Origin: Sphingobacteriaceae bacterium
GTDB lineage: Bacteria > Bacteroidota > Bacteroidia > B-17B0 > Aurantibacillaceae
DNA: 63,293 nt
Direction: 5' to 3'
Assembly: GCA_023251775.1 (NCBI GenBank)
Contig: JAHEYC010000002.1
Coordinates: 20,416 to 83,708 of the forward strand
Part shown: positions 29,073 through 55,888 of the stretch, in pieces
Numbering within the stretch: position 1 is the stretch's first letter
How the letters are laid out: the number at the start of each line of letters is the position of its first letter
Translations under genes and position numbers: made by a program
The notes under the pieces: model-generated
What the model saw: the letters and a program-made list of their open reading frames with translations, nothing else
Told to the model about the DNA's origin: nothing
Database searches by the model: none

Positions 29073-31139
29073 TTATTTTATACGGAAGCTTATGCCAAAA
29101 GAGGTATAGATACTCTTTAATGACAAAGAGATAGGCTGATCGCCGTTGTAAATAGACTGGTTGCGGAAGAAATAACCCTCGCGGATATACAACTGAGTTC
29201 TATTATTGATGTTATAGCCTATTTTGAGAGCAGCATTAAAGTAGAGGTTACTTCTAAGATCGGTCTTACGATTGGTATACTCAAATTTATAGGCATCTGT
29301 TGCAACCAAGTGAGATGATTTTAGTGGCATAGTATAAATGATACCTGCTTGCGGTTCAATGGAGAGTTTGCCACCGATCTTGAAATTATAACTAAGATTC
29401 AATGGGATGCTTAAATATCTTACTTTGTTCACAAAACTCAAAGTGCTAACAGAATCTCCGTTAACGGTTGCTTTTGCAGTGTTGTAGTTACCCGTTGCAA
29501 CTTGTTTGTATATGGTATCAACTATTTGTAAGGTAAGGGTGGATGAATCGGCTACCCAATTCCAAACAAAATAATCAATAGCCGTGGTGTATTGTGGTGT
29601 TTTAAAAGGCTGTATATCCACTTTGGTCTCTAAATTGAAATAACTTACTCCTGCGCTAATTCCTACACCTTCATTATATACGTAGCTTAATGAGGCAGCT
29701 CCGTTGAATAAGCTATGTTTTCCTTTACCCACAGCGTTGGCATAAGCAGTTGTAAATGCAGGATCTCCGGTGCTGAATTGTGATGGTGAATTAGGATTTT
29801 CTTTTGTGTTGAAGAAAAGAGTGCTGTAAGATGCTTCGGCCCCAATTAAGAATTTATGTTTGTTGCGCGGACTCACCGAGCCTGTTCCAATTACTCCCGG
29901 AATGTGATTTTCGGCATTGGCAGAATCAACACCTTCATTTTTGTTAGATGTTTGGTTTGCTTTTGTCACAGCAGTGATCTCAGCTTCAACCTTACCTTCT
30001 GTTGTTAAAGTTTGATCTGAACCTGCATTGGTGTTGGCATCTGTTTCATTCTTTACAATATCTTTTTCGGTCGCTGAGCCGTCGCCCTGAGCTTGTCGAA
30101 GGGTTGTCGAAGCGTCTTCTTTTGTAACATCGTTCTTCTTATTCTGATCATTAGACCCTGAATCTTCCTTTATTTTTTCTCCGTTTTGTTTTTCTTCATT
30201 AGAGGCTATTGGATCTTGTTTTTTAGCCTCCGTATTTTTAGTTTCATTTTTTACTTCAATTGCTGTTTTAGAATTTGCATTACCAGTATTCTCGTTAGAA
30301 TTTTTTGCAATTTCTTTTATTTCCGATCCTTTTGTATTAACAGAAGAATTCACATTACTTTTTGCTTCGTTAGAATTTTTATTAGAAAGCGCAACGTTAA
30401 GATCCTCTTTTTTGTTTGCAGGAACTGTATTAGTTATGCCTGTAGACCTTACTTTTCCTTTTGTAATAGGTTTATTCTCGCTATTTTTTGTTCTTGCTGC
30501 AAGTTCGTTGTTAATTGAGCTTGTATGATCAACCGGTTTGATCGTAGTAGTTTTTTTAGTTGACTTTTTTTCTTCGTTGTTTACATTTTGGGTCACTGAG
30601 CCTGTCGAAGTGTTTTTCTCGGACTTTATTTCTTTAGCAGCTGAGTTTTCTTTAGCAATTGCATTTGAATTATTCTTTAACGCGCTTGATGAGTTCTCAG
30701 ATGAAGTTTCTTTAACTTCTTTTGCAGTATTGCTTTCTTTCTTAACAGTTTCAACAACTGAGGTCTCAGAATTTTTACGCTCTGAAAATTTATCTTCGTT
30801 AGTAGTTCCAACCGAATGAATAGTGTTTTGATCTGAAGAAGTTGCCTCTGTTGCAGAATTATCTTTGGTAGAGGATGTTGATTGAGAGATCTGCGTTTCT
30901 GAAGATTCATTCAACGCCAATGTTTGGTCTGACCCCGAATTCAAAATAAAATAGGTTGATAAAAGAACAGCAACGCCAATACCCCCAATAATGGAGTATA
31001 AACCCCATTTATTGCGTGAGGTTTCTTTAGCTTTCTCGAAATTAGTTTTTACCTCTGCAAATTTTAACTTGCGAGGCTCAACACTAAGATCTGCCAGCTT
31101 GCGCTTAATAAGCTCATCATTATGCTTACTGCTTTCCAT
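29073..31139 (-). CDS. Inner-membrane anchored, long-linker outer-membrane barrel fusion; probable anti-sigma partner
   Basis: Residues 1-45 are a charged cytosolic segment and 46-66 one transmembrane helix (LYSIIGGIGVAVLLSTYFIL). Residues 67-427 form a low-complexity Ser/Asn/Lys/Thr/Glu-rich linker, and 428-688 an outer-membrane beta-barrel-type domain ending GISFRIK. The first 76 bp overlap the 3' end of the ECF sigma gene. The short N-terminus could bind the sigma factor, and the linker is long enough to cross the periplasm. This architecture is inferred from sequence. The linker also contains in-frame copies of a palindromic DNA repeat. Confidence 0.75.
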   Translation of the reverse strand: MESSKHNDELIKRKLADLSVEPRKLKFAEVKTNFEKAKETSRNKWGLYSIIGGIGVAVLLSTYFILNSGSDQTLALNESSETQISQSTSSTKDNSATEATSSDQNTIHSVGTTNEDKFSERKNSETSVVETVKKESNTAKEVKETSSENSSSALKNNSNAIAKENSAAKEIKSEKNTSTGSVTQNVNNEEKKSTKKTTTIKPVDHTSSINNELAARTKNSENKPITKGKVRSTGITNTVPANKKEDLNVALSNKNSNEAKSNVNSSVNTKGSEIKEIAKNSNENTGNANSKTAIEVKNETKNTEAKKQDPIASNEEKQNGEKIKEDSGSNDQNKKNDVTKEDASTTLRQAQGDGSATEKDIVKNETDANTNAGSDQTLTTEGKVEAEITAVTKANQTSNKNEGVDSANAENHIPGVIGTGSVSPRNKHKFLIGAEASYSTLFFNTKENPNSPSQFSTGDPAFTTAYANAVGKGKHSLFNGAASLSYVYNEGVGISAGVSYFNLETKVDIQPFKTPQYTTAIDYFVWNWVADSSTLTLQIVDTIYKQVATGNYNTAKATVNGDSVSTLSFVNKVRYLSIPLNLSYNFKIGGKLSIEPQAGIIYTMPLKSSHLVATDAYKFEYTNRKTDLRSNLYFNAALKIGYNINNRTQLYIREGYFFRNQSIYNGDQPISLSLKSIYTSFGISFRIK
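30070..30114. repeat. Nested palindromic repeat inside the linker coding region
   Basis: An outer unit, GGTCGCTGAGC followed later by TTGTCGAAGCG, is interrupted by an inner unit, CGTCGCCCTGAGC then TTGTCGAAGGG, 24 bp (8 codons) long. The inner unit carries the common TGAGC...TTGTCGAAG dispersed repeat. Read in the gene's frame it yields the peptide LRQAQGD. Confidence 0.65.
30590..30611. repeat. Second TGAGC/GTCGAAG repeat in the same coding region
   Basis: The sequence GTCACTGAGCCTGTCGAAG is another copy of the same repeat type, also in frame within the disordered linker. Confidence 0.6.
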
Positions 31140-31681
31140 TGAGTTCTTTTTGCTTCTTCTTTTTTATTTATTAATTCTATTAGGTATTGTCGTGCTTTGC
31201 TGTACTGACTTCTGCTCGTTGCCTCTTTTATTCCTAACTGATCGGCTATCTCTTTGTGACTAAGTCCTTCTACCAAATATAAGTTAAATATGGTTCGGTA
31301 TCCCATCGGCAGTTCATTTAAGCATTCAAGAACGTATTCTGCTTTAATGTCTTGATCGATCTCTGTCTCGGGTTCATCAACAATGTACAGTTTATCAGCC
31401 GATTCAAACTTTATCTTTTGTTTTTCTTTTAAATAAGTAAGGGCGGTGTTAACTGTTATGCGTTTCATCCATCCCTCAAAATTTCCTTCTCCCTTGAACT
31501 GATTTAAATTTAAAAATATTTTAATGAACGAATCTTGTAGTACATCTTCTGCGTCATCTCTATTCTTTATGTATCTGCAACAAATTCCATACAACGATTT
31601 AGAATAGGATGTAAAAAGGAGTTCCTGAGCTTTTGAGTCATTTTGTTTACAACGGTTAACTATTTCGTTAAGGTTCTCCAC
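31064..31681 (-). CDS. ECF-type RNA polymerase sigma factor
   Basis: Sigma-70 region 2 (CCRYIKNRDDAEDVLQDSF) and region 4 (YRTIFNLYLVEGLSHKEIAD with helix-turn-helix EATSRSQYSKARQ) are both present. The start is GTG. At 205 residues it is slightly longer than usual because of a hydrophobic C-terminal tail (WKAVSIMMSLLSASWQILVL). The downstream gene starts 76 bp before its stop, so the pair is tightly coupled and that product is the likely regulator. Confidence 0.95.
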   Translation of the reverse strand: MENLNEIVNRCKQNDSKAQELLFTSYSKSLYGICCRYIKNRDDAEDVLQDSFIKIFLNLNQFKGEGNFEGWMKRITVNTALTYLKEKQKIKFESADKLYIVDEPETEIDQDIKAEYVLECLNELPMGYRTIFNLYLVEGLSHKEIADQLGIKEATSRSQYSKARQYLIELINKKEEAKRTQWKAVSIMMSLLSASWQILVLSLAS

Positions 31682-31744
31682 TTTTTAACTAAGAACAAAA
31701 GCACACCTGAATTGGTATGCTTTTGTTTCTAAGTAAAGTTATGA

Positions 31745-33433
31745 TTATTCTTTTATTAAACGAACTGTCTTTTTAGCATTTCCACTGTTAATACTTACAA
31801 AGTACATTCCTTTTTTAAGGTCATTTACCGGAAGTTCAATTTCATTTACCCCTTGAAAGGTCTTACGATCTTGTTGAATTAAAAGTTTACCGGTGATCTC
31901 GTAAATAGACAGAGTAATATCGCCTCCGTTGGTCATGTTCACTCTTAAGTGACTCATATCTTTTGCCGGATTAGGATAAAGAACAACATCCGTCATAGCT
32001 TCATTAGCTGTATTCACTTTAACACCTGTAGGTGCACTGCTTGCTGCAACATTCACATGGTACATTGGCAATGGAGCTTCTGCACTTTTATTGATATAGG
32101 TATTTGAACAGAAGCTTGCAGTACCTGCACATGATACAGTAATAGTTACACAGATATTATAGAAACCTGATGCAGAGTAAGTGTGTGAAGGATAGAATCC
32201 GTTAGTACTGCTATTATCACCCCAACTCCAAACAGCGTTAGTTACGTTTGATGGATAGTTTGCAAAAGCCCACCATGTTAATGCTTGAGTGCTATCTTGA
32301 ACCATTACAAAATTAACGCTTGGGTTACAAGGTAGAGAAGGAATAAGAACTGTATCACAATAAGTGCTATAGCATAATGATGTAGAATCATAAATGGTTA
32401 AGCAAACATAATTGAAATAACTAGTGAATGTTTGATTTGTAGTAGGACCAGTAGCTGATGAACTGTTATTGAACGACCAGAAATAATTTGTTGAAGAGGT
32501 TGTTCCTGTTGAGTTACTTGCAAATGTTACATTACCACCGGTTCCAACTGTGAAGTTAAAGCTTGCATTACAAGTTGAACTGTTAGAAGCATTAGTGATC
32601 TGAATAGTATCGCAATAGCTGCTTGTGCAACTTGAATTGTTATCCGAAAGGAATAAACAAACAGTATACCATCCGTTGAATGCATAATTTGTACTTGCAT
32701 TAGCAGTATTAGCCGATTGATTATTTCCGAACCACCATGAATAATTTGTGCTCGCGGTTGTTCCGGTTGAAGTGCTTGTGAAATTAACGTTACCGTTACT
32801 TCCGATCACATAAGAGAAGTTAGCATTTATATTACAAGTGTTTGTAGAGTTGCTGATGAACACTGAATCGCAATACGAATCAAAACAGTTGTTAACTGAA
32901 TCGGTAACATTTAAACAAATAGTATAATAACCATTGCTTAAAGTAGTAGTTGGATTTTGTGCAGTTGAGAAGTAATTGCTGTTGATGGTCCAGTAGTAAT
33001 ACGTTAAAGTAGACGTATTGGTTGATGTATTAGTAAAATACACAGCGCCATTTGCGCCAACTGTTTTTGTGAAGCTTGCATTCAAGTTACATGTGCTCGT
33101 AGCGGCATTTGTAATTTGAATGGTTTGTTGCGCAGTTGCACTACAAGTTGTTGGAACATTCCAAGTAAAAAGTGTTACAGTATAAGTTCCATTTGCTGTA
33201 TATGTAGTAGAAGCATTTGGACCCATAGCATTTTGATTGTTACCAAACCACCATTGACAGCTAAGTGTTGATGGGTTTGATGTTGATTGAAACGAAACGT
33301 TTCCGTTAGCATTTACCGTATAGTTAAAACTTGCGGTACAAGCTTGAGCGTTTACATTCTTTCCTGCGAAAAGGAAAAAAGCTAACATTAATGTTGAAAG
33401 GATCGATCTTGTTGTTGTAATTGTTGTTTTCAT
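31745..33433 (-). CDS. PKD-like repeat protein, T9SS cargo
   Basis: Signal peptide (to VNA-Q) then several PKD-like Ig-fold modules of about 90 residues. They have repeating WWFGNNQ..TYT.NG.YTVCL and CDTIQITN patterns; four to five copies, one diverged. The C-terminal about 75 residues are a T9SS type A sorting domain (VVLYPNPAKDM ... KKTVRLIKE). It is a predicted cell-surface or secreted adhesin-like protein with no catalytic domain visible. It lies just upstream of the ECF sigma gene in the same direction, separated by 63 bp. Confidence 0.9.
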   Translation of the reverse strand: MKTTITTTRSILSTLMLAFFLFAGKNVNAQACTASFNYTVNANGNVSFQSTSNPSTLSCQWWFGNNQNAMGPNASTTYTANGTYTVTLFTWNVPTTCSATAQQTIQITNAATSTCNLNASFTKTVGANGAVYFTNTSTNTSTLTYYYWTINSNYFSTAQNPTTTLSNGYYTICLNVTDSVNNCFDSYCDSVFISNSTNTCNINANFSYVIGSNGNVNFTSTSTGTTASTNYSWWFGNNQSANTANASTNYAFNGWYTVCLFLSDNNSSCTSSYCDTIQITNASNSSTCNASFNFTVGTGGNVTFASNSTGTTSSTNYFWSFNNSSSATGPTTNQTFTSYFNYVCLTIYDSTSLCYSTYCDTVLIPSLPCNPSVNFVMVQDSTQALTWWAFANYPSNVTNAVWSWGDNSSTNGFYPSHTYSASGFYNICVTITVSCAGTASFCSNTYINKSAEAPLPMYHVNVAASSAPTGVKVNTANEAMTDVVLYPNPAKDMSHLRVNMTNGGDITLSIYEITGKLLIQQDRKTFQGVNEIELPVNDLKKGMYFVSINSGNAKKTVRLIKE

Positions 33434-40854: not shown

Positions 40855-43800
40855 ATGAAAAATCTTTTAAAACTTAGTATTCTGTTTAATTTCGTTCTAG
40901 TTTCTTTAAATGCTCAAACTTTCGCTTGGACTTTACCATTCGGGACTGGTTTTGGCGCCAACCATGGCTTTGCAATAACTACCGATGCGGCAGGTAATGT
41001 TTATACTACAGGCGACTTTGGTCAAATTATAGATTTTGATCCTGGGATAATTATTTATAATCTAAGTCCTAATGGGGCAAACGATGTTTTCATAAACAAA
41101 TTAGATGCCGCTGGTAATTTTGTTTGGGCAAAGAAAATTGGAGGTGCTACTGCTGATGCTGGACATGCAATTAATTTAGATGCGGCTGGAAACGTTTATG
41201 TTGGGGGCGCCTTTACGGGTACAGTAGATTTTGACCCAGGACCCGGAACATTTACTTTGGCATCTACGGGCGGACCAGCTGCTACCGATGCTTTTTTATG
41301 TAAGCTGGATGCTTCAGGAAACTTTTTATGGGCATGCAAATATGGTAATCTGGCTAATGACGATCTTGTTGATATTACAGTTGATGCTTCACTTAATGTA
41401 TACGCAACTGGAAGTTATAGCGGAACAGTTGATTTTGATCCGTCAGCGAGCACATACACGATGATGTCTAATGGTTTTAGCACATTCATTACAAAACTCT
41501 CGCCAGCGGGTAATTTTATTTGGGCGAAATCATTAGACGGTTCGCAACCAGCAGCAATAGAGTTCGACGGATCAAATAATGTAGTAACCTGTGGGGTATT
41601 TAGCGGAACACTTGATTGTGATCCGGGCCCTGGCACTTATACTTTAGCTTCTTTTGCCGTTTCTCAAGATGTATATATTGTTAAGCTGGATAACGCAGGG
41701 AATTTTGTTTGGGCCAAGCAAATTGGAGGAACAGCCACTGATGGAGTTAGTGATATGGATCTTGACGCGACGGATAATATTTATTTATCTGGTTCTTTCA
41801 ATACTACATGTGATTTTGATCCAAGTGCTGCTACGTTCAATCTAGTTTCGGCAGGCGGATACGATATTTTTATGAGTAAATTAGACCCGCTCGGTAATTT
41901 TGTTTGGGCAAAAAGAACCGGCGGAATTAATAATGATCTAGCTCACACAATTGGTATTGATCCAGTAGGAAACATTTATAGTTCAGGATACTTTACAACC
42001 ACAATTGATTTCGATCCGGGCCCCGGAGTTTTTAATTTAACTTCCGTTTTGCCTGCCGTCATCGATATTTACATTACAAAGTTTGATCTTTCAGGAATTT
42101 TTCTCTGGGCCGGGCAAATTGGAGGAACAGCCACTCAAAAATATACAACTAGCTTAGCTACCGATCCTTCGGGTAATGTATTTTATACTGGATATTTCAA
42201 TGGCCTGGTAGACTTTGATCCTTCTCCAGCAACCTTCACGCTTACTGCCTCGGTTCCTGCTATTCTTATTTCAAAACTTGGTGCCTGCTTTACGCCGACT
42301 ATTCCGAGTTCTATTAATGGTAATGCTACCATTTGCAACGGTACTCAACAAACTTATAGCGTGACACTGGTTGCAGGAAATAATTATACTTGGACATTAC
42401 CCGGAGGTTGGTCTGGAACCAGTACAACAAATATTATTACCACTACTGTTGGTGCAAGCAGCGGAACAATAAGTGTAGTTTCAGGTAATGGTTGCGGAAC
42501 CTCTCCTGCACAAACCGTTGCCGTAACTGTAAATTCTTCACCCGTGTTAACTATTACTCCAGCCAGCAATTCTATTTGCGTTGGTAATTCGGCAACTTTA
42601 AATGTTAGTGGTGCTTCTACGTATACATGGAGTACCGCGTCCAACGCAACTTCTATCGCGGTTTCTCCAACTATCACAACAACGTATTCGGTTACCGGAA
42701 CAAACGCTGCAGGTTGTATGGCAAGTGCTTCAAAAACTGTTACCGTTGTTGCGCTGCCTTCATTAACTGTAACAAGTAGTAGTAATACTATCTGTTCTGG
42801 GTCTTCTGTTACATTAACGGCAAGCGGAGCATCAACATATACATGGAATACGGGCCCAACAACTCCTGCTATATCTCCTTCTCCTACCGTTAATACTACA
42901 TATACAGTAACAGGAACTTCAGCTGTTGGTTGCACGAACACTTCAGTAAAAACTATTACTGTAAACCTTACACCAACTGTCTCGGTAAGCGGTGGTGCTA
43001 GTCCGGTTTGTGCAGGCACGCAAGTTCTTTTAACGGCAAGCGGGGCTATTACTTACAGTTGGAGTACAAGTGCGTTAACAGCTACTATTGCACCTTCTCC
43101 CACAATTACAACAAATTATACGGTTATTGGAACCAGCGCAGGTTGCAGTAATTCAATTGTAAAAACAATAACCGTAAATCCATTACCAACACTTACCATC
43201 GCTGTTAGCAATACGTTGGTGTGTTCAGGAAATACACTTGCATTAACCGCCAGCGGCGCATTAACATATACCTGGAGTGGTAGTGTTATAAATGCAGTGC
43301 CATTTTCTCCTACTATTACTACAAACTATACGGTTACAGGAACAAGTGCTGCAGGATGCAACAATACTGCTGCCATGACAGTTTCAGTAAATAATGTTCC
43401 AACAGCACCACTTTCTATTTCTGGTCCAACTGCATTATGTGCGGGATCATCAGCAACAACTTACAGCACCAACATTGTTGCAGGAGCTTCAAGTTATGTA
43501 TGGACACTGCCCGGAGGATGGGGTGGGGCGAGTACAACAAATAGTATTTCCGCAACGCCAGGGGCGAGTGGTGGAACTATTTCAGTTTTTGCAAGCAATA
43601 CTTGCGGTAATTCATCAACGCAAACTTTAGTCGTAGTTATTAATCCTGTGCCTTCTGTTACAGCAAATGGAAATCCACTTTCGGTTTGTCCTGCAGCAAA
43701 TGTAACACTTAGTGCAAGCGGCGCAAATACTTACACATGGAGTAGTGGACCAACAGTTGCCACAATTACAGTTAATCCATTAACCACAACAATTTATACG

Positions 43801-44322
43801 GTTACAGGCACTAACACTTTGGGATGTAATAATTTTACAACAATTACCATTGGTGTTTTTAGTAATCCAACTGTAAGCGCAGTTTCAAATAGCAATATTT
43901 TATGTGTTGGTCAAACTGCAACCTTAACAGCAGGCGGAGCAACTTCGTACACGTGGAATCCCGGTGGCGCAGCAACAAGCATTGTTGTTTCTCCAACCGT
44001 AACAACAACCTACACAGTTACTGGAACTGATGGAAACAGCTGTACAAGCTCAGTTGTGTATACGCAATCGGTTTCAACTTGTACAGGATTATTTGCTTTG
44101 AATTCGAAAGGATCAGAAATTAAGGTTTATCCAAATCCTTTCAATAATAAAATAACAATTGTTGTAAATGGAACCGAGCAGGTAAAACTGTTTAATGTAT
44201 TGGGTATGTTGGTTTATTCCGGAGATATTAAGGACAAATCAGAAATTGATCTAACTGAAAAACCAAATGGGATCTATTTCATACATATTGGATCTGTAAC
44301 TAAAAAAATAATTAAAGAATAA
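40855..44322 (+). CDS. Seven-repeat SBBP propeller/Ig-like T9SS protein, paralog A
   Basis: Signal peptide, then seven repeats of about 60 residues with the marker DFDP or DCDP and KLD..GNF.WAK, matching the SBBP beta-propeller family. Eight Ig-like modules of two types follow (one with LPGGW.G, one with CSGSSVTLTASGASTYTW-like cores), in the order A-B-B-B-B-A-B-B. A T9SS sorting domain with KVYPNPFNNK ends the protein. The DPGPG loops could bind calcium. It is a predicted surface adhesin or scaffold with no catalytic motif. The gene heads a run of at least three genes. Confidence 0.9.
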   Translation: MKNLLKLSILFNFVLVSLNAQTFAWTLPFGTGFGANHGFAITTDAAGNVYTTGDFGQIIDFDPGIIIYNLSPNGANDVFINKLDAAGNFVWAKKIGGATADAGHAINLDAAGNVYVGGAFTGTVDFDPGPGTFTLASTGGPAATDAFLCKLDASGNFLWACKYGNLANDDLVDITVDASLNVYATGSYSGTVDFDPSASTYTMMSNGFSTFITKLSPAGNFIWAKSLDGSQPAAIEFDGSNNVVTCGVFSGTLDCDPGPGTYTLASFAVSQDVYIVKLDNAGNFVWAKQIGGTATDGVSDMDLDATDNIYLSGSFNTTCDFDPSAATFNLVSAGGYDIFMSKLDPLGNFVWAKRTGGINNDLAHTIGIDPVGNIYSSGYFTTTIDFDPGPGVFNLTSVLPAVIDIYITKFDLSGIFLWAGQIGGTATQKYTTSLATDPSGNVFYTGYFNGLVDFDPSPATFTLTASVPAILISKLGACFTPTIPSSINGNATICNGTQQTYSVTLVAGNNYTWTLPGGWSGTSTTNIITTTVGASSGTISVVSGNGCGTSPAQTVAVTVNSSPVLTITPASNSICVGNSATLNVSGASTYTWSTASNATSIAVSPTITTTYSVTGTNAAGCMASASKTVTVVALPSLTVTSSSNTICSGSSVTLTASGASTYTWNTGPTTPAISPSPTVNTTYTVTGTSAVGCTNTSVKTITVNLTPTVSVSGGASPVCAGTQVLLTASGAITYSWSTSALTATIAPSPTITTNYTVIGTSAGCSNSIVKTITVNPLPTLTIAVSNTLVCSGNTLALTASGALTYTWSGSVINAVPFSPTITTNYTVTGTSAAGCNNTAAMTVSVNNVPTAPLSISGPTALCAGSSATTYSTNIVAGASSYVWTLPGGWGGASTTNSISATPGASGGTISVFASNTCGNSSTQTLVVVINPVPSVTANGNPLSVCPAANVTLSASGANTYTWSSGPTVATITVNPLTTTIYTVTGTNTLGCNNFTTITIGVFSNPTVSAVSNSNILCVGQTATLTAGGATSYTWNPGGAATSIVVSPTVTTTYTVTGTDGNSCTSSVVYTQSVSTCTGLFALNSKGSEIKVYPNPFNNKITIVVNGTEQVKLFNVLGMLVYSGDIKDKSEIDLTEKPNGIYFIHIGSVTKKIIKE

Positions 44323-44324
44323 AT

Positions 44325-47120
44325 ATGAAAAAAATAATTTACTTTTTTGTTATCACTTTTATAGTAACTGTGAATTGCAACGCTCAAGGTTTTATTTGGG
44401 CAAAAAAAGTAGGCGCCGGAAATAACGACGAAGCAACATGTGTAAAAGTTGATGGTTCCGGAAATGTTTATACAAGTGGATTTTTCCAAGGTACTGCCGA
44501 TTTTGATCCGGGTCCTGCCACATTTAATATGACATCTGCGGGCTTGCAAGATGCATTTATTTTAAAATTAGATCCTTCCGGAAATTTTTTGTGGGCGAAA
44601 CGTATTGGTGGAACAGGAGCAGATTTTGCTCAAGTATTGATACCTGATGCCGGTGGAAATATTATTATTTCAGGGAATTTCGCAAATATCGTTGATCTTG
44701 ATCCCGGGCCTGCCGTATCTAATTATACTTCCTTTGGTAGTAATGATATTTATGTTTTGAAATTGGACGGCGCCGGAAATTATTTATGGGCCAAACAAAT
44801 GGGTGGGGCTCAGTTGGAGGCGCCTTTGGGAATAAAGCTGGATGCCACTGCAAATATATTGATCTCAGGAAATTTTGATGGGATCCCTGATTTTGATCCC
44901 GGACCTTCGGTAACCACATTAACAGCTTCAGGAATATTCGATATTTTTATATTGAAGTTAGATCCCTCAGGAAATTTTACTTGGGTTAGAGGAATAGGTG
45001 ATGTAAATAATGATACCGGAGAATCTATTGCCTTGGATGCTGCCGGAAATGTGCATGTAACAGGAACATTTAACGGAACAGTTGATTTTGATCCGGGAGC
45101 AGCGGTCTTTAATTTAACCTCAGGGGGCTTTGATCCTTACATTTTAAAGTTGGATGCCGCTGGAAATTTTGTTTGGGCAAGAGTGTTGTACAACAACACA
45201 GCGGCCGATTATGGAATGGGTATTGCCGTAGATGCTTCAGGAAATGTTTATTCAACGGGACGTTTTGCTAATACCATGGATTTTGATCCGGGGCCGGGAA
45301 TTTTTAACCTAACAGCCGGCGGGACTTCAGACTCATATGTTTCCAAATTAAACTCGGCAGGTAATTTTGTTTGGGCAGCACAATTAGGCGGACCTTCCGC
45401 AGAATACGGTGAAGATATTGCGTTAGACGCGGTGGGTGATGTTTATAGCACAGGTTATTTTTCGGGTATTGCCGATTTTAATCCGGCCGCTGCTTCTTAT
45501 ACACTATCAGCTGCCGGAAGCGCTGATATTTATGTTTCAAAATTAAATTCAGCGGGTGCTTTTGTGTGGGCATCAAAAATGGGTGGAACAGCTTATGAGA
45601 TTGGATATTCAATTTATGTAGATGTTCCCGGGAATATTTATACTTGTGGACATTTTTCCGGAACCTGTGATTTTAATCCAACAGCAGGAAGTTATACACT
45701 CATATCTGCTGGACTAACAGATGCCTGGGTTCAAAAAATGGGTACATGTGCCGGTGCACCTGTAATATCGAGCACTATTACGGGAAGTACATCTGTTTGC
45801 CCGGGATCTACTTACATATATTCTATTACCGCTGCAGCAACTGCAACAAGTTATAATTGGATCCTTCCTTTAGGATGGATTGGTACTAGTACAACAAATA
45901 TAATTTCTGTAACGGCAGGTACCAGTGGAAATTTCAGCGTAACGGCAACTAGCTCTTGTGGTACGAGCTCCGCTCAAACCCTAAGCGTTACTGTAAACTC
46001 ATCGCCAACAATTACTGTAAATAGCGGAAGCATTTGCTCCAGTCAATCATTTACAATTATTCCTTCAGGTGCAAGTACCTATACAATTCAAGGGGGCAGT
46101 GCGATAGTTAGTCCAACAACAAATACGAGCTATACAGTGATTGGAACAAGTACTTCCGGATGTATTAGTAATATAGCTACATCAAATGTTACAGTGAATA
46201 CAATTCCAATTCAACCTTCGGCTATAACCGGTAATACTTTAATTTGTAGTAATACATCTCAAGCTTATAGTGTTTCATTGGTTGGAGGCAATTCATATAC
46301 TTGGACCTTACCGGGTGGATGGAGTGGAACGAGTACCAGTAATATTATTAGTACCACTGCAGGAATCACAAGCGGTGTGATAAGTGTTGCGGCCATTAAT
46401 GCATGCGGAACTTCACCAACGAGAACAATTGCTGTGACCGTTAACCCTGTACCAAGCATAACTATTTCACCAAGTAGCAATCCAATATGCAACTTAAATA
46501 CGGTTACCTTAACTGCGGCCGGCGCTTCAACTTATAGCTGGAATACTGGGCCAACTACAAATACGATAAGTCAATTCATTTCGTTCAACACTACTTTTAC
46601 GGTTACCGGAACGTTGGCAGGATGTTCTTCATCCTCAAGCATAGCTATCAATATTTTGACACTTCCACAGGTACTTGTTTCTTCAAATAGCGTTATGATC
46701 TGTGTTGGGCAAAACGCAGTGCTCACAGCAAGCGGTGCTGTAAGTTACACATGGTATCCTACAGGTTCAGGAAGCAGCATTTCCGTTTCACCAACGGTAA
46801 CAACCTCCTATACTGTTGTTGGTACCGGTGTAAATGGTTGTACCAACACATCAACATTTAATCAAGGGGTTTCACCATGTACAGGTTTAACTATTTTCAA
46901 TTCTCAAGAAGAAGAAATGTTGGTTTATCCAAATCCATTCAGTAATAAGATCACAGTGAGCATAGCAGGCGAATCATCCATAAAAATATATAACACCATT
47001 GGAATGCTTGTTTATTCTTCCGAAATAAAGAATAAAAAAGATATTGATCTTTCCGAGTTGCCTATTGGGATCTATTTTATTAGAACCGATCTCGAAACAA
47101 TAAAAATAATAAAGGAATGA
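44325..47120 (+). CDS. Seven-repeat SBBP propeller/Ig-like T9SS protein, paralog B
   Basis: Starts 2 bp after paralog A's stop. It has the same plan at 931 residues: signal peptide, exactly seven DFDP/DLDP/DFNP propeller repeats, five Ig-like modules (A-B-A-B-B) and a T9SS domain with VYPNPFSNK. The pair clearly arose by tandem duplication, with later gain or loss of Ig modules. Like its neighbour it has no visible catalytic residues. Confidence 0.9.
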   Translation: MKKIIYFFVITFIVTVNCNAQGFIWAKKVGAGNNDEATCVKVDGSGNVYTSGFFQGTADFDPGPATFNMTSAGLQDAFILKLDPSGNFLWAKRIGGTGADFAQVLIPDAGGNIIISGNFANIVDLDPGPAVSNYTSFGSNDIYVLKLDGAGNYLWAKQMGGAQLEAPLGIKLDATANILISGNFDGIPDFDPGPSVTTLTASGIFDIFILKLDPSGNFTWVRGIGDVNNDTGESIALDAAGNVHVTGTFNGTVDFDPGAAVFNLTSGGFDPYILKLDAAGNFVWARVLYNNTAADYGMGIAVDASGNVYSTGRFANTMDFDPGPGIFNLTAGGTSDSYVSKLNSAGNFVWAAQLGGPSAEYGEDIALDAVGDVYSTGYFSGIADFNPAAASYTLSAAGSADIYVSKLNSAGAFVWASKMGGTAYEIGYSIYVDVPGNIYTCGHFSGTCDFNPTAGSYTLISAGLTDAWVQKMGTCAGAPVISSTITGSTSVCPGSTYIYSITAAATATSYNWILPLGWIGTSTTNIISVTAGTSGNFSVTATSSCGTSSAQTLSVTVNSSPTITVNSGSICSSQSFTIIPSGASTYTIQGGSAIVSPTTNTSYTVIGTSTSGCISNIATSNVTVNTIPIQPSAITGNTLICSNTSQAYSVSLVGGNSYTWTLPGGWSGTSTSNIISTTAGITSGVISVAAINACGTSPTRTIAVTVNPVPSITISPSSNPICNLNTVTLTAAGASTYSWNTGPTTNTISQFISFNTTFTVTGTLAGCSSSSSIAINILTLPQVLVSSNSVMICVGQNAVLTASGAVSYTWYPTGSGSSISVSPTVTTSYTVVGTGVNGCTNTSTFNQGVSPCTGLTIFNSQEEEMLVYPNPFSNKITVSIAGESSIKIYNTIGMLVYSSEIKNKKDIDLSELPIGIYFIRTDLETIKIIKE

Positions 47121-50021: not shown

Positions 50022-51956
50022 ATGAAAATGAAAAAACAATTACTATTCGCTTCTTTCTGTTTGCTGTTAGCATTGGGAATGAATGCACAAATACCTCAGT
50101 CGATAAAGTACCAAGGTATTGCACGTAATGCTGCGGGTATTGCGTTAAACAATCAAGTGATCTCGGTGAGGATTGCTATTCGCGATAACTCTGCAGCCGG
50201 TCCGGTTGTATATCAAGAAAATCATAATGTTACTACAAGTCCATACGGTTTGTATAATATTAATCTTGGTACAGGTTCTGTATTACAAGGCACATTCAAT
50301 GCTGTTAACTGGGGTGTAAATACAAAATTCATTGAACAAGAAGTTGATTTTGGCGCAGGTTATGTAAACATGGGCGCATCACAATTTCTAAGTGTTCCTT
50401 ATGCATTGTTTGCTGCTAACGGTCCTTCAGGCCCTGCGGGTCCTATAGGACCCACTGGACTAACTGGTCCGCAAGGTCCTATTGGAAACACAGGTCCTGC
50501 CGGTCCTACGGGCCCAACTGGCCCTACAGGAAATACTGGCCCACAAGGTCCAATTGGTATTACCGGTCCTGCTGGTCCTACAGGTCCAACTGGCCCTACA
50601 GGCCCAACCGGTCCTATTGGTCCTGCCGGTCCTACTGGCCCAACGGGTCCAACCGGCCCAACTGGTCCGATCGGCCCTGCCGGTCCTGCCATGTGGACAT
50701 TAACTGTTCCAACTTTTAATACTGCAGGACAATTAACTGTAAATGGTACTGCCGGTTCAGGTGGTCCCGTTTCAACTGTTGGTGGTGCATGGTTATATGG
50801 TGGTAATAATTTTGCCGGTAATGCGAACTGGGGTTTAACTACAAACAACAGTATTGATCTTTTAACTAACAATACGGTAAGAGGTCGTTATGAAAATACA
50901 GGACGTATGTTATATGGTTCAAGTATTTCTCCAACATATAGCAATGGCATTGCAGTTTTCACATCAAATAATGTAACCTATCCGCATACTGTTCTTGCAA
51001 ATCAAGGAACTACAGGTTCTGCATTAATTGGAATAACTACAGCAGGTTCTTCTTCAGGTTTCTCTTCGGTGGACGGTGAATATACAGGGACAGGAACCGC
51101 CGGTGGAGTATCGGGTGCATTTCTTGGTACAAATGCGTCTACTTTAATTTCTGCGGTTCAAGGCCAGTGGGGCGGTACTGCTACATCAGGCGGTATTGGT
51201 GTTTCAGGTCTAAACAATGCCACAACAGGTTATAATCGTATTGGAGTGTTTGGTGACTATGATTGGAACGCTTACGGTATTGGTATTATGGGTAGAGGAT
51301 ATAACGGTAATTTTCCTACTTCCACCACAAGTGATTATGCTGTAGTTGGTGTAGTTGGCAACAATTCTAACTATGCAGGATACTTTAATGGTAACCATGT
51401 AATTGCTAATGGTACAAAATCAGGATCAATTCCTACTACAAAAGGAAACCAATTATTGTATTGCGCAGAATCACCTGAAGTTTGGTTCGAGGATCTTGGT
51501 GGCGGTAAATTACAAAATGGTATTGCAACTATACAACTTGATGCATTGTTCTTAGAAACCGTTGTTATTGATGATAAACATCCAATGCGTGTTTTCATTC
51601 AAATGGAAGGTGAATCGCAAGAAGTGTTTGTCACAAAAACTAACACTTCATTTACTGTGAAAGAAAGAAACGGTGGTAACTCAAATGCTGAGTTCTCATA
51701 TCGTATCATGGCAAAGCGCGTTCATTTCCAAGATCACCGTTTTGGTAATGATCCTGTTTGGGGTCCCGGCGACACGCGCGCGTACTCTTCATATGCTAAG
51801 CCAACACCAATTGATTATAATGAGGCGGTACAATTTTGGGCAGATTTCAAAAAGAACTTCAAGCAAGGTCCTCTACCTGCGACATGGAAATCTGTAGACC
51901 CTAAAGAAATAAGAAACCAACTTCAAACAAAAGCGAATAACGTGGGAACTAAGTAA
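50022..51956 (+). CDS. Secreted collagen-like protein
   Basis: Signal peptide to NAQ. The N-terminal domain (about 23-133) is shared by secreted Bacteroidota proteins ([16 protein letters not shown]). Then 30 uninterrupted Gly-X-Y triplets (residues 134-223), mostly GPT, GPI and GPA. A long Ser/Thr/Gly-rich region and a C-terminal domain (about 470-640, with [18 protein letters not shown]) follow. No T9SS motif is visible, so export beyond the periplasm is uncertain. Trimerisation through the collagen-like segment is likely. A terminator follows. Confidence 0.9.
50421..50690 (+). repeat. Gly-X-Y coding repeat
   Basis: 270 bp of 9-bp-periodic sequence encoding 30 collagen triplets. The antisense frame is also open (GPVGPVGP), which explains a spurious minus-strand ORF here. 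Confidence 0.95.
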
Positions 51957-52510: not shown

Positions 52511-55500
52511 ATGGAAACCACCCCGTACCAAAGCAAAAATAAGATCAGAATTGTTACCGCAGCGGCCCTTTTTGATGGACATGATGCCGCTATTAACATA
52601 ATGCGTCGAATTATGCAAAGCAGCGGTGCTGAGGTCATTCATTTAGGCCATGATAGAAGCGTTCAGGAGGTGGTAGATTGCGCTATTCAGGAAGATGCAA
52701 ATGCAATTGCTATTACGAGTTATCAGGGCGGACACGTAGAATATTTTAAATACATGCACGATCTTTTGAAAGAAAGAGGTTGCGGACATATCAAATTATT
52801 TGGCGGTGGGGGTGGTGTTATTTTACCAACCGAGATCGAAGAATTACATAAATACGGTATCACAAAAATTTATAGTCCCGATGATGGTCGCTCACTTGGC
52901 CTGCAAGGAATGATCAACGATCTTTTAAAACAATCTGATTTCCCTTTAGGTTTGAATTTGAATGGGGAGGTTGGTTATTTAAAAGAGAAAGATCACAAAT
53001 CGATCGCAAAACTTATTTCGGCAGCAGAGAATCAAAACGAAGAAAGTGTTGCCATGCTCAAAAAAGTAAAAGAGTTGGCAGCGGCTTCTAAAGTCCCCGT
53101 GTTAGGAATTACAGGAACAGGTGGCGCAGGAAAATCAAGTTTGGTAGATGAATTAGTGCGCAGATTTTTAATAGATTTTCCTGAAAAACAAATTGGCATC
53201 GTTTCTGTTGATCCATCCAAACGTAAAACAGGCGGCGCGCTTTTAGGCGATCGTATTCGCATGAATTCTATTCGTAACGATCGCGTATTCATGTGTAGTA
53301 TGGCAACGCGTCAAAGTAATTTAGCATTGTCTAAACACGTGCAAGATGCCGTTGATATTTTAAAAGCTTCGGGATTTGATCTTATTATTTTAGAAACTGC
53401 AGGTATTGGACAAAGCGATACGGAAATCACAGAACACAGCGATGTAAGTTTGTATGTGATGACACCCGAGTACGGCGCAGCATCTCAATTAGAAAAAATT
53501 GATATGTTAGAGTTCGCCGATATCATTGCACTCAACAAATTTGATAAACGTGGCGCATTGGATGCTATTCGCGATGTAAAAAAACAATTCAAACGCAATC
53601 GTAATTTATGGGATACTCCCGATGATAAATTACCTGTGTATGGTTCTATTGCTTCGCAGTTCAACGATCCGGGAATGAATCGCCTTTACATTGAAGTGAT
53701 GAATAAGATCGCCGATAAAACAGGTTCAAAGCTCACATCACATTTTGCTTCAACAAACGAAATGAGCGAGAAGATCTATATCATTCCTCCGGCTCGTACA
53801 CGTTATTTGAGCGAGATCTCTGAGAACAATCGCGGATACGATAAAAAAGCATTGCAACAAACCGAATTAGCAGATAAATTATATAGCATTAAAAACACAA
53901 TTGCTGCCATTAAAGATTCTAAGATGGCCGACAAAGATCGCTTAGTAAAATCACTGGAAGAAGAATATGGAAGAGTTGAATTGGACTTCGATGGACACAA
54001 CCGAAAAATATTAGATACCTGGGAAGAACTCAAAAAACAATATCAAGGCGACTATTATATTTTTAAAGTACGCGATAAGGAAATAAAAATTAAAGCGCAT
54101 TACGAATCACTTTCGCATACACAAATTTCAAAAATTGCAGTTCCACGCTTTAAAGGTTGGGGCGATATTTTGCAATGGAATTTACAAGAGAATTTCCCGG
54201 GAAATTTTCCTTACACTGCCGGCATCTATCCATTTAAACGCGAAGGGGAAGATCCTACGCGTATGTTTGCAGGCGAGGGCGGACCGGAACGCACAAACAA
54301 ACGTTTTCATTATGTAAGTAAAGGATTACCTGCAGCGCGTTTAAGCACAGCGTTCGATAGTGTAACACTTTATGGTAATGATCCTGATCACCGCCCGGAT
54401 ATTTACGGTAAAATTGGAAACTCAGGTGTTTCGGTTTGCTGTTTAGATGATGCAAAAAAATTATACAGTGGATTTAATTTAGCCGATCCAAAAACATCGG
54501 TTTCAATGACAATTAATGGTCCTGCTGCAATTATTGCCGCATTTTTTATGAATGCCGCTATCGATCAGCAATGCGAATTATACATTAAAGAAAAAGGATT
54601 AGAAAAAGAGATCGATAAAAAGATCAACGATATTTATAAAACAAAAGGCGTTGCTCGTCCAAAATATTTTGGCGATCTGCCCGATGGAAATGATGGCTTG
54701 GGTTTAATGTTACTTGGAGTAACCGGAGATCAAGTTCTCCCTAAAGACGTTTACGACAAAATAAAAATTCAAACACTTGCGCAAGTACGCGGAACAGTAC
54801 AAGCCGATATTTTAAAAGAAGACCAAGCGCAAAACACTTGCATTTTTAGCACAGAATTTAGTTTGCGCGTGATGGGCGATGTGCAACAGTATTTTATTGA
54901 TAATAACGTTCGTAATTTTTATTCTGTTTCCATTAGCGGTTATCATATTGCCGAAGCCGGTGCAAATCCTATTTCCCAACTGGCATTTACTTTATCAAAC
55001 GGATTCACATTTGTAGAATATTATTTAAGCCGCGGCATGAACATTGATAGTTTTGCGCCAAACTTATCGTTCTTCTTTAGTAATGGTATCGATCCTGAGT
55101 ATAGTGTTATTGGTCGCGTTGCCCGCCGAATTTGGGCCAAGGCCATGAAACATAAATACGGCGGCAACGAACGTTCGCAAATGTTGAAGTATCATATTCA
55201 AACTTCGGGTCGTTCGTTACATGCACAAGAAATTGATTTCAATGATATTCGCACAACCTTGCAAGCATTGTACGCTATTTACGATAACTGTAACTCATTA
55301 CACACTAATGCTTACGATGAAGCGATAACAACTCCTACAGAGGGTTCTGTTCGTCGCGCCATGGCCATTCAATTGATCATTAACCGCGAATTAGGTTTAG
55401 CAAAAAATGAGAATCCATTACAAGGATCATTTATCATCGAAGAATTAACTGACCTGGTTGAAGAAGCAGTGCTAAAGGAATTTGATAGCATTAGCGAACG

Positions 55501-55888
55501 CGGCGGAGTTTTAGGTGCCATGGAAACTATGTATCAACGTGGCAAGATCCAAGAAGAAAGTTTGTATTACGAAACATTAAAACATACAGGTGAATATCCT
55601 ATCATTGGTGTAAATACTTTTTTAAGTTCTAAAGGATCTCCAACTATCATTCCTCAAGAAGTTATTCGTTCAACTACCGAAGAAAAGGAATTTCAGATCA
55701 CAACAGTTCAAACTTTATGGAAAGCAAGCGGCGATAAAGGCCAGCAAATGCTTAAGGAAATTCAAGTGGTGGCAGTTAAGAACGGAAATCTTTTTAATTC
55801 GCTTATGGATGTTGTGAAATATTGCAGCCTTGGACAAATAACCAAGTCGTTATTTGAAGTAGGCGGACAGTATCGCCGCAATATGTAA
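52511..55888 (+). CDS. icmF: Fused acyl-CoA mutase with G-protein chaperone (IcmF)
   Basis: Coenzyme B12-dependent mutase in one 1125-residue chain. The N-terminal cobalamin-binding domain has lower ligand His24 in DGHDAA. The MeaB-like GTPase has P-loop GTGGAGKS at 202-209. The C-terminal mutase barrel contains [19 protein letters not shown]. This domain order defines IcmF, which interconverts isobutyryl- and n-butyryl-CoA and is often mis-annotated as methylmalonyl-CoA mutase. Specificity residues were not checked, so either activity is possible. It probably links branched-chain or propionate metabolism with the biotin carboxylase at the window end. Confidence 0.93.

Follow-up and report, generated by a model that had tools for sequence, protein, structure and literature searches.

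An ECF sigma factor gene overlapping the gene for a predicted dual membrane-spanning anti-sigma factor in a Sphingobacteriaceae bacterium

The window analysed here is a stretch of 63,293 nucleotides from a Sphingobacteriaceae bacterium (contig JAHEYC010000002.1) whose genome comprises 3.6 Mb in 144 contigs and is 98.5% complete. On the minus strand of this window, a gene for an extracytoplasmic function (ECF) sigma factor is followed by a second gene, here called the partner gene, whose first 76 nucleotides lie inside the sigma gene (Table 1). This arrangement had been proposed in a preliminary description of the DNA, and both open reading frames (ORFs) and their 76-bp overlap were found as described. 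The sigma protein carries Sigma70_r2 (E 4.7e-14) and Sigma70_r4_2 (E 6e-16) domains, both above the Pfam cut-off; among the 25 NCBIfam matches listed, the general sigma70-ECF model alone exceeds its cut-off. The protein is 55% identical to the sigma factor of G009, a genome of the same genus, and 54% identical to that of G032. The partner yields only a sub-threshold Pfam match to a barrel family (OMP_b-brl, E 0.014, 16 bits vs. a cut-off of 28.7), and no FecR family is among its Pfam or NCBIfam matches up to E 1. An apparent similarity of residues 48-201 to TraP (NCBIfam, 24.2 bits vs. a cut-off of 135) was taken as compositional.

Table 1. Features of the sigma factor gene and its partner gene, in window coordinates
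Feature	Position	Strand	Basis
ECF sigma factor gene (Das-like), 205 amino acids, GTG start	31064-31681	-	ORF, Pfam, homology; final ~25 codons shared with the partner gene
Partner gene, predicted Dma-like anti-sigma factor with C-terminal outer-membrane barrel, 688 amino acids, ATG start	29073-31139	-	ORF, AlphaFold full length
Overlap of sigma and partner reading frames, 76 nucleotides	31064-31139	-	ORF coordinates
Predicted cytosolic anti-sigma domain, residues 1-46	31002-31139	-	N-terminal profile E 0.0026; helix 5-16, start of helix 27-68
Predicted transmembrane helix, residues 47-65	30945-31001	-	Hydropathy, N-in charge bias, within modelled helix 27-68
Predicted disordered periplasmic tether, residues 69-428	29856-30935	-	pLDDT mostly <50 over 69-424; composition
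Predicted C-terminal barrel, residues 428-688, eight long strands	29073-29855	-	AlphaFold, structure matches, barrel profile
Dispersed repeat copy 1, in tether	30085-30101	-	Exact CTTCGACARGCTCAG match
Dispersed repeat copy 2, in tether	30594-30610	-	Exact CTTCGACARGCTCAG match

Hydropathy reveals a single hydrophobic segment in the partner protein, at residues 47-65. Before this helix there are 12 K/R vs. 8 D/E residues, and in the next 30 residues 1 K/R vs. 4 D/E, a charge bias suggesting that the N-terminus is most likely cytosolic. An AlphaFold model of the full-length protein, computed from the partner plus 21 relatives taken from the sigma-anchored survey described below, contains helices at residues 5-16 and 27-68, a region at 69-424 in which the predicted local distance difference test (pLDDT) score is mostly below 50, and strands within 429-687. 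N, S, T, K and E together make up ~62% of residues 69-428, and hydrophobic residues 13%. Hydropathy, charge bias and AlphaFold thus agree with the earlier division of the protein into a start of ~45 residues (46 by our count), one transmembrane helix and a disordered linker of ~360 residues. A profile of the N-terminal region, made from proteins encoded next to the survey's sigma factors rather than from Dma proteins of Bacteroides thetaiotaomicron and leaving out the window and its three closest relatives, ranks the partner frame first among the window's 196 stop-to-stop frames (E 0.0026, 11.4 bits; next frame 1.3). The alignment begins at the partner's annotated ATG. The stretch coding for the tether also holds, in the coding direction, two copies of a dispersed repeat, CTTCGACARGCTCAG. 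Exact copies number 10 in the whole genome (0 for a reversed control), so a fifth of them lie in this one linker.

The C-terminal part of the partner is predicted to fold as an eight-stranded barrel. Modelled alone (residues 414-688, 275 residues), it reaches a mean pLDDT of 79.6 and a predicted template modelling (pTM) score of 0.74. With this model as the query, OmpA ranks first in Foldseek (E 5e-8), and VIA-align gives Z 17.2 for an OmpA model, Z 16.6 for NspA (root-mean-square deviation 2.8 over 155) and Z 16.3 for OmpW. In the DSSP line, read by eye, the long strands span residues 428-447, 474-488, 492-509, 567-584, 592-605, 631-643, 648-662 and 670-687, and a loop contains an additional short hairpin. 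Because the number of strands is even, both ends of the barrel are on one side, and a periplasmic tether can therefore enter a barrel that ends in the periplasm. The barrel-like C-terminus that had been suggested from the sequence, with an AlphaFold model proposed as its check, is accordingly predicted as an OmpA-like barrel (pLDDT 79.6, Z 16-17) and not as a soluble periplasmic fold. A barrel profile built with the window and its three closest relatives excluded recovers the partner frame at E 8.9e-13, the sole frame listed at E up to 1 among the window's 196. Within a 22-member set of such proteins (A4), searched against Pfam at E 0.01, OMP_b-brl_2 was found in 12 members and OMP_b-brl in 11, the window's protein being in neither group.

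Relatives of the pair were sought through the sigma factor, because a scan of genome contigs with the 688-amino-acid protein gave 83 pattern matches with no relative among them. Nor does a search of the window's own genome with the full protein give any further match at E 1. Related ECF sigma factors were found at E 1e-8 in all 87 genomes of the window's GTDB family, which is unremarkable; matches to the whole 688-amino-acid protein occur in only 4 of the 87, the window's own included (up to 13 candidates scored per genome). One set of loci comprises 60 stretches around sigma genes, hand-chosen among the matches listed in this family. It gave 61 sigma hits including the window's, 58 with a downstream ORF and three without; the sigma factor of L038 is not among them. 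A second set consists of the best 80 of 585 confirmed loci, 78 of which have a downstream partner ORF. One of the two 351-amino-acid partners at L062 was left out of the counts. The resulting 135 partners reduce to 130 distinct ones after removal of five identical duplicates, and to 128 after two shorter than 160 amino acids were dropped.

An iterated barrel profile identifies 66 of the 128 distinct partners as barrel-type; the samples are non-random, so that this fraction is no estimate of prevalence. A survey of the architecture had been suggested in the preliminary description, and these 66 pairs are its yield. Separation is sharp (66 at E 3.5e-27 or better, none of the remainder better than 1.2), but the profile was iterated on the survey set itself, whose members match by construction, and the leave-clade-out tests are the independent ones. 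Two partners counted as non-barrel (L073 and L074) have C-termini that look barrel-like by eye. By a simple rule, a hydrophobic segment begins within residues 30-110 in 62 of the 66 barrel-type partners. The tether, measurable in 63 of the 66, has a median length of 179 amino acids (range 84-341), and the window's, at 334 by profile, is near the long end. Barrel-type partners are 365-688 amino acids long (median 479), and non-barrel partners 163-560 (median 281).

On a tree of the sigma factors (128 rows), the label barrel or other needs nine changes, compared with 42.7 in shuffles, and at least two of these are forced by well-supported branches. The C-terminal type therefore follows the sigma lineage, yet was swapped on at least two occasions. 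Of 36 sampled genomes of the window's GTDB family, 28 have barrel-type pairs, with one to five each and 44 in all. When set against whole-protein matches in 4 of 87 genomes, this distribution indicates that fold and pairing are kept although the sequence diverges rapidly. The window's genome, which has 15 Sigma70_r4_2 matches (14 over the cut-off), encodes a second barrel-type pair (L037, contig C122, partner of 511 amino acids) and a non-barrel cousin (L036, contig C32, 342 amino acids). Downstream of the barrel-type pair at L042 is a second, shorter gene (L042:2172-3419, minus strand) whose C-terminus resembles that of the barrel partner; these neighbouring genes are possibly tandem duplicates.

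The overlap of the two genes in the window is the longest among the 66 barrel-type pairs, for which partner starts were set by a first-ATG rule. The next longest, at 55, 55 and 34 bp, all belong to the window's clade, and the remaining 62 pairs overlap by at most 14 bp or are separated by a gap. The 76-bp overlap, which had been offered as evidence for a functional pair, is real but therefore supports co-expression only weakly; it appears to stem from a sigma reading frame lengthened locally in a small clade, and is not a trait of the family. Substitutions in the overlap, in the few sequences available, have no clear preference for a codon position.

The FecI-FecR-TonB relay carries a signal from the outer membrane to an ECF sigma factor, and in this relay the inner-membrane protein FecR meets a separate TonB-dependent receptor. 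The window pair, as we read it, would transmit a signal in the same direction, but it differs from the relay in that barrel and anti-sigma domain belong to one chain and the partner matches no FecR family in Pfam or NCBIfam up to E 1. The preliminary description had proposed a direct device of this kind, from outer membrane to sigma factor, as something new. The device fits the anatomy, predicted fold and homology of the pair, but the novelty does not stand, because the architecture has been published as Dma (PMC13088901, PMC9308784).

Dual membrane-spanning anti-sigma (Dma) factors were named in B. thetaiotaomicron, where the pairs described are Dma1/Das1 and Dma2 (BT_1558) with Das2 (BT_1559) (PMC13088901). 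As described there, these proteins consist of an N-terminal anti-sigma domain, a transmembrane helix, a disordered tether and a C-terminal barrel, their genes adjoin ECF21 sigma factor genes, and loss of Dma2 increases vesiculation in a Das2-dependent manner (PMC13088901). To the extent that likeness can be drawn from this published description, the window pair has the same four parts, a sigma gene adjoining the anti-sigma gene, and a host in Bacteroidota, and differs in that its tether is near the long end of the measured relatives and its genes overlap by 76 bp. A similar pair was described in 2022 in Phocaeicola vulgatus (M0N98_03760/03761), where the sigma gene precedes that of a large anti-sigma factor, which is predicted to cross the periplasm and to end in an outer-membrane barrel (PMC9308784). 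In that account, expression of the sigma gene increases 33-fold on exposure to a toxin that binds the lipid A core, many other genes induced by this toxin are also induced by a BamA inhibitor, and inactivation of the anti-sigma factor derepresses a protective, sigma-dependent regulon (PMC9308784). The regulon is partly known, and includes longer O-antigen and partial protection from toxins (PMC9308784). Gene order, predicted span and barrel are alike in the P. vulgatus and window pairs when compared by description.

For the window pair, gene anatomy, predicted fold, homology and gene pairing were obtained in this analysis. The Dma features found are an ECF sigma neighbour, an N-terminal domain (by a weak match), a transmembrane helix, a tether, a predicted barrel and a host in Bacteroidota. 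By every feature open to testing here, the pair is a new member of the Dma family, its sigma factor being assigned at the general ECF level, and it takes the Dma architecture outside the gut Bacteroidales of the cited papers. The steps that we infer for this pair concern sigma binding, an uncleaved topology, insertion by the beta-barrel assembly machinery (BAM), proteolytic release, a signal and a regulon. Residues 1-46, by homology with the published Dma/Das pairs, would bind the sigma factor and hold it at the inner face of the inner membrane, in which the helix at 47-65 would anchor the chain. The ~360 disordered residues would cross the periplasm to residues 428-688, which BAM would insert into the outer membrane as an OmpA-like barrel of eight strands whose two ends both face the periplasm. 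If the outer membrane is disturbed or the barrel fails to assemble, the tether or helix would most likely be cleaved, and the sigma factor thus freed would switch on an envelope programme.

A sigma/anti-sigma pair of the Dma kind, with one chain running from cytosol to outer membrane, is very probably the best explanation of the locus as a whole, and several observations weigh against it. The window protein itself is under every Pfam barrel cut-off (best match OMP_b-brl, E 0.014), and in four of the 66 barrel-type relatives the simple rule finds no hydrophobic segment that begins within residues 30-110 (one begins at 25). The full-length model is of low overall confidence (pLDDT 53, pTM 0.42), as expected with so long a tether. 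The N-terminal match is weak (11.4 bits), and the protein has F where the profile consensus has W. The 688-amino-acid protein might instead be an ordinary outer-membrane protein, its helix a long cleaved signal peptide and its sigma neighbour unrelated, and it is true that only its C-terminal domain resembles named families and that the fold of this domain is common. However, 46 residues, predicted to be partly helical, stand before the hydrophobic segment, and they match a domain of relatives that share only this part and the sigma neighbour. A version of the N-terminal profile built from 60 barrel-type partners only matches 55 of the 62 non-barrel partners, scoring above the best of 1240 shuffled sequences. 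An ordinary outer-membrane protein is therefore a highly improbable reading.

We also give little credence to the idea that the two genes form a sigma/anti-sigma pair in which the barrel-like domain binds a ligand in the periplasm, outside the outer membrane. The 62 partners that are without such a barrel by profile imply that insertion into the outer membrane is unnecessary for the wider family to work. Nevertheless, the domain has eight long strands, the last of which ends at the C-terminus, in the fold of OmpA, NspA and OmpW, and barrel-type partners are the longer ones, as a spanning tether would require. A role for the overlap itself is similarly improbable. The hydrophobic tail of the sigma factor (approximately residues 181-205) could act, for example, in membrane recruitment, and the 55-bp overlaps of the two closest relatives encode a similar tail; such likeness can follow from a conserved partner frame, and nearly all barrel-type pairs (62 of 66) do with an overlap of 14 bp or less, or with none.

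At least 12 of the 62 non-barrel partners (128 partners in all) end not in a barrel but in a type IX secretion system (T9SS) sorting domain that scores above a curated cut-off. Ten are of type B (PF13585, 41-74 bits vs. 27: L118, L109, L121, L124, L130, L136, L146, L155, L174 and L134), and all ten pass the Pfam CHU_C cut-off. In nine of these scanned with the NCBIfam type B model (L146 being outside that scan), L109, L121 and L130 are below its 35-bit cut-off. The other two are of type A (TIGR04183, cut-off 23): L128 at 31.4 bits and L106 at 26.8, the latter just below the cut-off of the Pfam type A model (26.4 vs. 27). Both type B models end 6-12 positions before the profile end in L124, L130, L136 and L155, as does the Pfam model in L146, and the tag may be degenerate in these five. 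The first eight non-barrel partners scanned included two with a sorting domain and one more with PKD domains only; further candidates were selected by visual inspection of the C-termini in the group of 62, of which the scans covered a part, so that 12 is a lower bound. Scans of L168 (PKD only) and L062 (nothing) detected no sorting domain. All 12 tagged partners come from records titled as metagenome-assembled genomes (MAGs).

The T9SS-tagged partners (L106, L109, L118, L121, L124, L128, L130, L134, L136, L146, L155 and L174) also have a transmembrane helix, and 11 of the 12 match the barrel-derived N-terminal profile above the same shuffled maximum. The exception is L121, whose start was probably set too far downstream by the ATG rule. 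On the sigma tree the T9SS label needs four changes, at least one of them forced. The N-terminal profile common to barrel and T9SS partners indicates a single anti-sigma stem to which either a BAM client or a T9SS-type end is joined. We tentatively raise the possibility, without considering it likely, of a wider Bacteroidota family of anti-sigma factors with an exchangeable C-terminus, a BAM-inserted barrel or a T9SS domain, each reporting on its export route as a substrate of that route. As long as the C-terminal end is properly taken up, the chain would be held and the sigma factor bound; if the route is jammed or disturbed, the chain would be cut and the sigma factor released. By-eye picks, MAG records and borderline or short model matches slightly lower the odds of this proposal.

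The exchangeable C-terminus is the part worth following, with the T9SS form as a possibly new sister variant. If the proposal is true, the T9SS-tagged form would connect T9SS function directly to a sigma factor through one chain and would make feedback control of the T9SS directly testable, and Bacteroidota would possess in this family a ready-made set of sensors for two outer-membrane export routes. Among the listed results of targeted literature searches, we found no report of a T9SS sorting domain on an anti-sigma factor; PorA of Porphyromonas gingivalis comes nearest. PorA is described as the first protein with a T9SS C-terminal domain involved in regulating genes for T9SS components, via PorXY (PMC7712824). 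In the PorA-PorXY-SigP pathway, as might be so for the tagged cousins, a T9SS sorting-domain protein is upstream of an ECF sigma factor, but PorA is a separate surface protein that acts upstream of a two-component system and is not an anti-sigma factor (PMC7712824).

Directly upstream of the sigma gene, positions 31745-33433 (minus strand) encode a protein that combines PKD domains with a type A T9SS sorting domain. It was set aside as an operon member, as no homologue is present in the stretches retrieved around L039 and L040, the closest relatives. A very stable hairpin at 31684-31737 (-25.7 kcal/mol for 31670-31745, z -5.2) occupies most of the space that separates the end of this gene from the sigma GTG. 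The hairpin may be a terminator of the upstream gene or a leader structure of the sigma mRNA. A terminator scan of 31500-31950 gave no site by its rule and did not list the hairpin, and the same interval has one promoter-like site, vs. 1.5 expected.

Fragments of anti-sigma factors are often degraded by ClpXP, and for this reason the downstream clpP gene was considered as a functional neighbour. It was rejected: in one syntenic fragment, L032, clpP comes after the partner gene, but in L039 and L040 it does not. In that fragment, from the same genus (L032:1-2116), ClpP is 95.5% identical to the window's, the product of the next gene (MORN-type) 66% and the barrel 41%, so the barrel evolves faster than its neighbours.

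Other proteins are encoded elsewhere in the window, on the plus strand. Two adjacent genes (40855-44322 and 44325-47120) specify large proteins with PKD_6 domains, beta-propeller (SBBP) repeats and T9SS sorting domains, and a 644-amino-acid protein encoded at 50022-51956 contains collagen triple-helix repeats. The product of 52511-55888 joins a B12-binding domain, a MeaB-type GTPase and a methylmalonyl-CoA mutase domain in one chain of 1125 amino acids.

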